64,000 bases of DNA, taken from positions 4,421,001 to 4,485,000 of the forward strand of contig NC_066332.1 of assembly GCF_022539315.1 (NCBI RefSeq). The letters run 5' to 3'. Both the position numbers and the translations under genes were made by a program. The stretch comes from Serinus canaria. Its lineage: Eukaryota; Chordata; Aves; Passeriformes; Fringillidae. A model generated the notes under the pieces. The model was given only the letters and a program-made list of their open reading frames with translations. It did no database searches and was not told where the DNA came from. Below, piece after piece: positions 54,818 to 60,800 of the stretch; within the stretch, counting starts at the first letter, position 1; every line of letters begins with the position of its first letter.

Positions 54818-57800
54818 CTAGCTCTGGCCCAGGGAGTGCAGGCAGTCCAGCCCGTTCTCGGAGCCGGCCGAGGAGTCGCGCGAGGAGCGGCCCTGCAGAA
54901 AGCGGATGATTTTGTCAATCGTGGCCTCCTGGTACTCGTGGGACCACCTGTATCGAGGGGAAAAAGTGTGATGTTTACTTCTGCTGCTGCGTGTGGGGTG
55001 CCACAAGGTAGCTCAGTTCATTTGAGCCAGCCAGAGACCCCTTTCCTCCACCCCACCTCTCCTTTTCCCCACGGGTGCTGCAGGATGTCCTGCCAGGTTG
55101 CACAAAGGGAAAGCAGGGGGGTAAAGAAACCCAGGTGAGCTGTAAAACCTGCCAGCATCACTAAGGATGTGTGTCCTCCCAGCAGTGATCCCTCTGTCAC
55201 CTAGAGGAGCCCCAGCACAGCACCAGCAGCAGGGATGTGGTGGGAACCTTTGCTCCCTGCAAGCTCTGGAGCACCTGGAGTGACTCAGTGTCCCTTTGAC
55301 CTGTTCTGCCACCCTCATCTGTTTGTCCCAGTGTCCTTGGGCTCTTTGCTGCTCTGTATGCAAGCTGTTCTCCCCAGCTGCCAAAGAACCCCATGGCACA
55401 GGTGGCTTTTACTTACATGATACCATTGAATTTCAGGACAGCCCTCATGTCCTTGGGAAGTGTTTCTGGGTCTGGCCACTCGAAATGGTCTGTAACAGGC
55501 ACAATGTTCTTCCCAGAGTTCAGGGCTGTCACAATCTCCTGCAGGAACAGAACATGCAGGTGCTCTTGGCCTGTATCAGCCCCTCACCCACTCCCTCCCA
55601 CCAGAGGTCCCACCTGGTGGCATCTCTTACCTTGTGTACCCAGTCCTTGCACTCGGGGTCCTCCATGCATTTATCCAGTGCGTTTGGTGAGAGGACCAGC
55701 ACAAAATTCCGGGCACTCAGGACACTCTGGATCAGTTTGTCTTCAAACTTCCCTGCCTCCAGCTTCTCCACGTCGATGAACACGCTGAAGCCGTGGAGCT
55801 GCAGGTGGACCTTCAGCAGGCTGGTGGCAAGAGGGGACAGCACCACAAGGAGAGGTTTATTTGCTGTCTCACCACGTTGGCTGAGACACGGGGAGACAGA
55901 GGAGCAGGGAATGAGATGCCAGCTCCAGCCCAGCTGTCTGGGCACGTGCAGAGAACACGAGGAGCTGACATCGATTCCATGCTGTGATCCCCTGCAGCCC
56001 TAGGAGCGTGGGGAAAGGGTCACTCAGTGCCAAAGTGGTATTGTAGCAAGGTGACCCCCCACAGCCAGGGAATAATGTGTGTGGACTCCAGTGATTCCAG
56101 AAGGCTGAACAATTGTTTTATTGAGTTATACTATATTATACTGCATACTACACTAATACTATAAAATACTAAAGAAAAACCCATGACTGCTTACAGTCAC
56201 GACACAGCTTTGGCCTAATTGGGCAATCAATCAATCAAAACAATCATCACCAGAGTCTAATTAACAAATCCCTCTTGGTAAACAATCTCCATTACACATT
56301 CCACATGTGCTAAACAACAGGAGCAGCAAGTAGAGATAAGAATTGTTTTCTTCTTTGTCTGAGCTTTCTCACAGACTTTCCCCAGGAGAAATCCTGGGAA
56401 GGTTGTGCCTGCTGCTCTCTGTGAAGAGAGCTGTGGCCACAAAGTGGCGGCGACAGGACGGGGAACTGGCCTGTCCACTGTGCAGCTCCTCACATGTGCT
56501 GTCCCCATTTCCTCTGCAGCTTTTGGCAGCCTCTCCCTCCTCCCCATTCCACACCTTTCCCACAGCTGACCACCCACCTTCATTCCCTGCAGGGCTCACC
56601 TGGCCAGCTGCGAGCCGGTGCTCCTGCGGTAGCTGATGAACACGTCGGTCCCGTTGGATGCGGTTTGCAGGGTGATGGGCGAGTGCAGCGTCTCTAGACA
56701 GCACAAAACAGCCACCACAAGTTACAAACCACCCAGAAGCTCCTTGCCTTGTGATTTCGGGGTTTACTTCAGAAACCCAGTCCCTCTCCTGATGATTCCC
56801 TCCCAGCTGTGTCAGTCACCTCTCCTTTCCCCTCCCAGCACTGTCTGTCAATCCTAGAATTCCAGAAGGGCGTTGAGTGATTGGCAGATTCAAAGGGTGC
56901 CCTCTACCCCTGGGGGAGCATTGGGCCATCCAGGTGTCCTTTGTCCCTTAAGATCCCCTTCTGTGTACCGGGCTGGTGGGATTCCTACCCCTGAGATCCC
57001 CCTCTCCCCAGGGTTAAAAGGAACAGCAACCACATGTTTGTGAGTTCTCTTGGAGCTGGGGCTGGGTTCAGAGGCCTATGGGCCAGAACAAAGCTCTGGA
57101 TCCAAACCCTCCATCAGAACCTACTCCTTTCCTTCCCCATCACCTGAAGCTTCTCTGCCAGAGGCAAACCCAAGGAGCAGACCCTGTTATGGGGGAAGAT
57201 CCATCCCACCACCACCAGAGTTCCTGCATGCCTGGACTCGTCCCCACGTGCCCAGCTGCAGCCCCCAGCCAGCCAAAAGTGTCTCTGGGTTGAAACACCA
57301 CAGTTGCCCCCGTTTGGTCAAGCAGCAGGGCCAGACAAGCTCAGGCGCATCCCATCCAGCTACATTGGTAATACTCGATTGGAATAATTACCAATATAGC
57401 TGGACAGGACGTGCCTGAGCTTGTCTAGCCCTTGGTGCTTGACCAAAACCAGCAACTGTGGTGTTTTCACCCCACAGACACTTTTGGCTGGCTGGGTGTG
57501 TGGTGTTTTCACCCCAAGACACTTTTGGCTCTCTGGGTGTGTGGTGTTTCACCCCACAGACACTTTTGGCTGGCTGGGTGTGTGGTGTTTTCACCCCAAG
57601 ACACTTTTGGCTGGCTGGGTGTGTGGTGTTTCACCCCACAGACACTTTTGGCTGGCTGGGTGTGTGGTGTTTCACCCCACAGACACTTTTGGCTGGCTGG
57701 GTGTGTGGTGTTTCACCCCACAGACACTTTTGGCTGGCTGGGTGTGTGGTGTTTCACCCCACAGACACTTTTGGCTGGCTGGGTGTGTGGTGTTTCACCC

Positions 57801-60800
57801 CACAGACACTTTTGGCTGGCTGGATGCTGCAGCTAGGCACATGGAGGCAGGTCCAGGTGTGCAGGAGCTCCGGTGGCTGCAGGATGGAGCTTCCCCCATA
57901 ACAGAGTCTGCTCCTTGAGTTTACCTCTGGCAGAGAAGCTTTAAGGCAGTGATGAAAGAAAAGTCAGTTCTGATAGAGTTTTGATCCAGAGCTTCATTCT
58001 GGCCCACAAGCCTCTGAATCCAGCTACAGCTCCAAAAGAACTCCTGACTGCATGGTTTGCTCACTCTTTTACCCAGAAGAGGAGAGAAAGAGCATCAAGA
58101 CCACTAACCAAGTATGGGAAAGGAGATCTCAAGGGACAAAAAGACAGCTGAATGGCCCAATGTCCCCCCAGGGGTAAGAGGCATCTTTTGAATCTGCCCA
58201 ATCACTCCATGCCCTCCTAGAATGCCAAGCCTGACAGACAGCACTCAGCAAGGAGCAAGAGAAAGAGACAAAGAAGTGGCTGACACATCTAGCAGTGAGC
58301 TATCACAAGAAGAACCAAGCTTCTGAAGTAAATCCTGAAATCACAACTCAACGTTATTCCAACAGCAGCTGATCCCAAGCACCCCTCCAGCCCGTTCCCG
58401 CACCCCTGGCGGCGGTGAGGATGCGGACGCGGTGGAAGCCGGTGTGGATGTGGCAATCCTCCTGCAGCTGCTGCTCCGTCACGCGGTGCAGGAAGTTGCG
58501 GTCGATGCCGCAGGTGAGCAGGTTGTAGGTGTACTGCCGGAATTTGGGCTCGATGCCCCCCAGCCAGTCGGCCAGGTTGCTGCGGTCACAGGTGGAGTAG
58601 TTGGCGAAGGTCTTGAGCTCCGTCAGCTCCCGGAAAAACCTGGTGGGGGGACAGGTGGAGCAGCACTTAGAGACACGGGGGTGCCACTGTGGGATTTTTG
58701 AAGGAGTTTTGAATGAGGTAGAGAGGGGACCTCTGAGTTGTTTTAGGGGATGTGGTTTATTTTTCTTATCTTCTGCACAGGCAGGAAGGGTGGGTTCAGC
58801 TCACATCTTTACCGCACGGTTCAGAAGGTTGCAGCACTTGTAGTTACAAGACTTTTTAAGTATTTATTGACCAATAAAACACTGCTAACAAGGATATTTA
58901 TGCTTTTTACTTAATCCTTAACTCAATCCTCCTATTTTGTCTTATGGACTCATGCTACAATGTAAGTTTTTTAACCAATTATGTTATAACACAAACCTAC
59001 AGTACTGCATTCTAAACTTCTTGTTTACCTTTGTAACTATTTTTATTTTTTCTATATCTTAAACTCTGGAACTCTAAACTTTCCTCTTCTTAATTTATCA
59101 TGTCTCTACTTTAAACTATAAATCCACATTCTCAGTTCTGGCACCTAAGTTTGGAAGCTTTTTCCAAGGTCTCAAATGAAATCCTGTGTTTAATTCTAAG
59201 CTTTGGCTTACAGGCCCAAAGTTCTGCGAGTTCCCTGCACTTCAGATTCCAACATTTTACCTGCTCAGGAGGGAGTGCAGCTCCACACTGGGGTGAAGGA
59301 TGAGCTCCAGGAACAGGAAACAGAGGAACAGCTGCATGGGAGTGCTGGTCCTCAGGACAACGAGGTGTGAGCAGCTCAGCTAAGGGTCAGGTCCCATTTT
59401 TCTGGGTAACTTGCAGGATCCCACCTGCCCTGTGCCATAGGTGGTCTTTCCCCCACCCACACCTCTGCCATGCAGTGGTCCCATTACAGAAATCTCTCTG
59501 GGACTGCAAAAAGTGCAGTGGAAAAGCCCCGGCAGTCCAGGTTTTCCATTTGGAGGATCTCTGTTCCTGTTTTTGCAAGAAGGGAAAGGCAGAGACCTGG
59601 TCCCTGGCTCTGCCACTGTGGTGATGGCCCTGAGGGAGTCCAGTGTGCCCTGGGGGTGGTCCTACCTTTTCCGAGTGATGCTGGAGTCCATCCCCAAATC
59701 CTTCTGCAGCTCCTCCTCTGTCAGCCTCAGGAGAATGTCCCCATCCACCTGGTGATCCTGCCAAGAGAAATCCAGGCTGGAAAGGTCCCAGGAAAAGCTG
59801 GGTGAGACGCTTGCACCTCTGCTGCGAGATGGGGCAGAAATGTCCACCCACGTGTCCCTCCCCCAGCCCAGAGCCCTACCAGGAATCTCTGGCAGTATTT
59901 GTTGAATCCGATCTGCTGCAGCCACGTCTGCACCTCACAGGACTTCCAGCTGGGAACTGTGGGCAGGATGCGCCGAGGAACCTCCTCCCCTATCAGGCGC
60001 AGCACCTTTTTGGCCAGGGAGGAGGTGGTGCTGCTGGTGGAGTAGCACACAATCCTCTTCAGGCTCTGAGTAGCCCCGATCTCACTGAAAATCTGGGGAC
60101 ACAAAGGGAGGAGACGGCACTTTGCCTCCCCTCATCCTCCTCCCTATTGTTCCAGACAAAGGAAGGAATGATAAATCTGACTCCATGTTCTCAGAAGGCT
60201 AATTTATTATTTTATGATACTGTTTTATATTAAAGAATGCTAAACTAAAACTATACTAAACTATACTAAAGAATACAGAAAGGATACTTACAGGAGGCTA
60301 AAAGATACTAATGAAGATTTGTGGCTCTCTCCAAAGCCCTTACTCAGCTTGACCATAATTGGCCAAAGAGTGAAAACAACTCACATGAAACCAATGAAAC
60401 AATCACCTGTGGGTAAACAATCTCCAGCCACATTCCAAAGCAGCAAAACACAGGAGAAGCAAATGAGATAATACTGTTTTCCTTTTCCTCTGAGGCTTCT
60501 CACCTTCCCAGGAGAAGAATCCTGGGCAAAGGGGTTTTTCCAGAAAATATGACTGCCACGCTTCCCAACAAGATGTGCTGGGCCAGATGAATACCAAGGT
60601 GTTTGGTGGGCAAAAGACACCAAGATGCAGCTGTGCCACCCCTTCCCTTGGTCATCACCTTCCTCCAGGCCAACCTACCCTTTACCTGTGTTTTCTTCTG
60701 CCTGGCTTTGATGGCAGCCTCGGTGCACAGGTAGAAGGCGGCGATGCACTGAGCCTCCAGCCTGGAGCTGTCCAGCAGGGGCACCAGGCGCTGCAGGTCC

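Follow-up and report, generated by a model that had tools for sequence, protein, structure and literature searches.

Can a large insertion be concealed from the splicing machinery by the folding of its RNA? A palindrome in SARM1, the gene driving axon degeneration, offers a natural test of this question in the canary, Serinus canaria. The stretch of DNA analysed here, a window of 64 kb, carries SARM1 on the minus strand. Open frames over exons 2 and 5 matched SARM1 chains in the PDB. Exon 6, whose frame on its own had no match in the PDB, aligned with other SARM1 proteins after exon joining. Once joined, exons 2-9 formed a single open frame of 564 residues that shares up to 95% identity with bird SARM1 proteins. 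The exon encoding SAM2 is exon 5 (58404..58639, minus strand, donor GGG/GTGCGG), as identified by its PDB match, its limits and the joined frame, and the TIR domain starts in exon 6 (56600..56693, minus strand), placed by its limits, its frame and the alignment to SARM1 proteins. Intron 5, which separates these SAM2 and TIR exons, runs from 58403 down to 56694 on the minus strand and is 1,710 nt long. The Met in the FNGIMWSH motif of canary SARM1 was common only to Sylvietta among the 15 relatives aligned.

A palindrome in SARM1 intron 5

An earlier, sequence-only reading of this locus had proposed that intron 5 is almost entirely one palindrome that spares the splice sites, and our analysis confirmed that the palindrome is real. 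Local alignment of the two halves of the intron, one of them reverse-complemented, gave a score of 440, and none of 500 shuffles made in 2-base blocks scored above 30. Self-alignment placed the left arm at 56749..57372 (624 nt, the 3' arm in the minus-strand SARM1 pre-mRNA) and the right arm at 57387..58346 (960 nt including a minisatellite, the 5' arm in the pre-mRNA), and the inverted-repeat pair left a central loop of 14 nt at 57373..57386. The inverted repeats reach the ends of the palindrome, the arms aligning from 56749 and 58346 up to the loop. The palindrome thus makes up 1,598 of the 1,710 nt of the intron (93%), an unusual structure. Only 112 nt lie outside it, taken here as the ancestral intron: a donor-side flank of 57 nt (58347..58403, minus strand) and an acceptor-side flank of 55 nt (56694..56748, minus strand), the latter with a pyrimidine-poor tract and a TAG acceptor. 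Both splice sites are therefore spared, and the outer paired block, the loop and the distances to the exons given earlier were correct to within a few bases (55 nt to exon 6 and 57 nt to exon 5).

The longer right arm is swollen by most of a 41-bp minisatellite tract of 8.9 copies (57457..57823). A single copy of the unit is present in the left arm, at 57264-57302, and the expansion took place in the right arm only. Leaving this growth out, the palindrome measures ~1.27 kb. The one-sided minisatellite could also be a site of length polymorphism. Another minisatellite, GC-rich, with a 26/51-bp unit and ~468 bp long, is found in the window at 46507-46974.

Within the palindrome, and again without the minisatellite growth, the arms were identical in 491 of 597 ungapped columns. 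With nine flanking columns added, 495 of 606 columns were identical and the remainder consisted of 83 transitions and 28 transversions, giving a K2P distance of 0.217. These differences bear on whether the palindrome is an artefact, as assemblies are known to produce false palindromes. The arms of such an artefact are expected to be near-identical, whereas here arm identity is 82%, K2P is 0.217 and the minisatellite has grown in a single arm. We therefore rejected this explanation as extremely improbable.

Because the arms are 18% diverged, the palindrome is, as judged from its sequence, old and decayed. Songbird substitution rates are 2.2-3.3 x 10^-9 per site per year, and for arms that were identical at the start the divergence would correspond to an age of some 33-49 million years at these rates. 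The divergence also weakens the earlier proposal of an instability hotspot in DNA.

Intron 5 in other vertebrates and the origin of the palindrome

To place the palindrome in context, the length of intron 5 was deduced from protein records. We examined 120 SARM1 proteins, out of 812 above threshold, and aligned 15 relatives. Several of these relatives had an insert located precisely at the exon 5/6 junction, which falls between ...AAR and E(M/T)LHSP. A motif test located this junction in 110 of the 120 proteins, leaving 10 unscored; an insert was present in 8 of the 110 and absent in the other 102, which are uninformative on intron length. Six of the eight inserts fit the full retention of a short intron 5, as they end at the split Glu codon and start with Gly, the residue produced by the last G of exon 5 and the GT of the intron. 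The retained intron would be 120 nt in Calidris pygmaea, 84 nt in Centrocercus, 87 nt in Anolis, 120 nt in mouse isoform b, 132 nt in Urocitellus and 99 nt in Dipodomys; these records, mostly gene predictions, cover two birds, one lizard and three rodents and include no songbird. As a check of the method, an insert at intron 3 in Cuculus was 41 aa, that is 123 nt, and canary intron 3 is 122 nt. That intron 5 is only 84-132 nt in these six vertebrates is thus well supported but indirect, being read from proteins. The inserts of the two Microtus records (P0114 and P0119), of 22 and 71 residues, start with Glu and have the look of an added exon, not of a retained intron.

Other searches added little to this set. 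A search of the region for further inserts like that of Calidris returned, among 76 candidates, Calidris itself alone, and a scan of GTDB contigs for SARM1 exon 5 gave 63 pattern matches with zero confirmed. Peptides from the canary flanks showed weak likeness to the six inserts, with 2 of 12 comparisons at p < 0.05, uncorrected.

As the intron left around the palindrome (112 nt) agrees in size with the 84-132 nt deduced elsewhere, the most economical reading is that the palindrome was inserted into a very short ancestral intron of ~112 nt and did not arise by duplication of the intron; it would have arrived as a single insertion. The earlier reading had proposed an inverted duplication of the intron as one possible origin. 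In such a model, template switching would have turned the original intron into one arm and its copy into the other, in line with arms that meet at a 14-nt loop and with the absence of a target duplication. However, the 624-nt arm is longer than intron 5 appears to be in the six non-songbird vertebrates, so that the arm itself would have needed a prior insertion. We rejected the duplication of a resident intron on these grounds and consider it very unlikely.

The absence of a target duplication, noted in the sequence-only reading, was borne out by our searches near both limits of the palindrome. With one mismatch allowed, no sequence of 6-11 bases was shared between the two limits, and the longest exact word that they shared was 4 bases, word lengths of 4-8 having been tried. 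This result bears on a narrower form of the foldback-insertion explanation, in which the palindrome belongs to a repetitive family of foldback elements or MITEs that have very long terminal inverted repeats and other copies in the genome. Foldback transposons and palindromic MITEs are palindromic end to end, and the canary palindrome is like them both in its end-to-end pairing and in its insertion-like limits. It differs from them in being without a target-site duplication, and its membership of a family is putative. A second copy is also absent from the 64-kb window, where neither arm has further matches, and the outer 26 columns of the arm alignment (24 identical) showed no significantly higher conservation than the other columns (p 0.29). 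We consider membership of a repeated family less likely than not. The window held 98 inverted pairs, and among the 25 longest those outside the palindrome were low-complexity and ~23 kb apart. An A-rich stretch at 7030-7338 and a T-rich stretch at 30335-30491 are low-complexity sequences that pair in this way.

The insert was also compared with known families. No remnant of a transposon protein was found in the nine open frames of intron 5 scanned, where Pfam returned two hits, both weak and below the cut-offs. Around the loop, Rfam returned 9 matches up to E 1 (lowest E 5e-8), all of them to models for the precursors of microRNAs from various families. A known Rfam RNA was rejected since every match fell well below its gathering score (for example, 45.5 vs 190 and 43.3 vs 100), and we read these matches as the score that any long hairpin would obtain.

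Predicted hairpin and splice signals

The proposal that the palindrome would form a long hairpin in the SARM1 pre-mRNA agrees with the predicted fold, which is far more stable than chance. The sense intron had a predicted folding energy of -1038.6 kcal/mol, with an average of -597.5 (sd 14.0) for ten mononucleotide shuffles, and the antisense intron one of -928.8 kcal/mol. In the sense fold the arms formed 547 pairs with each other, including 68 G.U pairs, and the longest unbroken helix had 52 pairs (26 in the antisense fold). Large parts of both the donor-side and the acceptor-side flank were also paired in the fold of the whole intron, and such flank pairing, if it forms as predicted, could hinder splicing.

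The splice signals of intron 5 were the weakest in a post hoc ranking of seven introns (2-8), for which donors were scored with a donor matrix. Its donor scored 4.97, the lowest value, with introns 2-4 and 6-8 at 7.14-11.03; its acceptor had the fewest pyrimidines (10 of 16, against 11-14 in the others) and the shortest longest pyrimidine run (4, against 5-12). Since this donor is the weakest and this pyrimidine tract the poorest of introns 2-8, hairpin-assisted splicing of intron 5 is plausible as a model. Complementary sequences lie near both splice sites, 57 and 55 nt away.

We propose, with modest confidence, that an old palindromic insert in a SARM1 intron of ~112 nt folds into a hairpin and that this folding keeps an intron with weak signals spliceable. 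A foldback-type palindromic DNA of ~1.27 kb, before the growth of the minisatellite, would have entered the ~112-nt intron between the SAM2 and TIR exons. Its arms would pair in the pre-mRNA to give one long hairpin, which would keep the insert from separating donor and acceptor and leave the other ~112 nt of intron between them. The spacing would then be restored to near the length deduced in other vertebrates, so that splicing would still succeed in a short intron whose donor is weak and whose pyrimidine tract is poor. We infer that the hairpin folds in the cell and that its folding is the reason why the insertion was tolerated, a mechanism that is plausible. If the intron is empty in other birds and the hairpin is necessary, the tolerance of an insertion would be tied to its ability to fold.

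Splicing assisted by intron structure has precedents. As cited in PMC9198270, dinucleotide repeats at opposite ends of zebrafish introns pair and permit splicing without U2AF2 (Lin et al. 2016). The canary intron is similar in that the sequences near its two ends are complementary and its pyrimidine tract is poor, and in both systems pairing could bring the splice sites together. It differs in having one long palindrome with arms of ~620 bp instead of dinucleotide repeats, and its role in splicing is a predicted one. In PMC2773006, opposed SINE/LINE pairs are proposed to form stems that shorten large introns; few such stems are reported there for chicken, they average 95 bp with loops of ~15 kb, and palindromes without a loop were discarded. 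The self-folded intron and the shorter donor-acceptor distance are shared with the canary, whereas the canary stem nearly fills its intron around a loop of 14 nt and those stems lie in large introns. PMC10790352 and PMC9977717 review how splice sites are brought into proximity by RNA structure. Among the literature matches listed, titles and abstract openings mentioned no palindrome in a bird SARM1 intron.

Mismatches between the arms

The preferred reading, in which folding keeps the intron spliceable, leaves the question of whether pairing has been maintained since the insertion. The insert may have survived as a hairpin with its arms since kept pairable, SARM1 splicing or an isoform at the SAM2/TIR junction depending on it. 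Only a self-folding insert could then have entered an intron of ~110 nt with weak splice sites, folding restoring the spacing. A contrasting possibility is that the palindrome is a neutral fossil, a tolerated insertion that is decaying and whose hairpin may form without consequence.

The mismatches between the arms, analysed in this one species, bear on both. The 83 transitions comprised 60 that give G.U in SARM1-sense RNA and 23 that give A.C (p 6e-5), and five alignment settings gave 54-63 G.U against 21-26 A.C. Selection for pairing is nevertheless not shown by this excess, because it was confined to the C/T columns (43 vs 10), the A/G columns being near even (17 vs 13; Fisher p 0.022 for the difference in bias between the two column types). 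The same held in the high-confidence columns, with 26 vs 3 for C/T and 9 vs 11 for A/G (p 0.0011). As selection should act on both C/T and A/G columns, the bias is more suggestive of a process affecting a single strand in one of the arms. We claim neither selection nor mutation as the cause of the G.U excess.

The reading in which the insert survived as a hairpin, its arms were kept pairable and splicing depends on it seems unlikely to us. The neutral fossil fits the limitation of the G.U excess to C/T columns, contrary to what selection for pairing predicts, as well as the 18% divergence of the arms (K2P 0.217), their indels and the one-sided minisatellite. Against it, a 1.6-kb insert in a ~112-nt intron with weak sites might harm splicing unless folded, and most of the arm sequence can still pair in the sense RNA. 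We regard the neutral fossil as a real possibility, if somewhat short of probable. As to whether the palindrome is now useful or merely harmless, harmless is our default.

Transcription-linked mutation was rejected as the cause of the G.U excess on account of the seven other SARM1 introns, which when pooled had no strand skew on the sense strand (G/C 0.986, T/A 0.995), several of the intron limits used for these figures being a few bases off. Single introns varied, with GC skews from -0.081 to 0.321 under the same limits. A strand-symmetric mutation model with separate rates for the arms fitted poorly (G 13.9 vs the saturated model). With no counterpart in the A/G columns, C in the left arm stood against T in the right arm (reverse complement) by 43 to 10.
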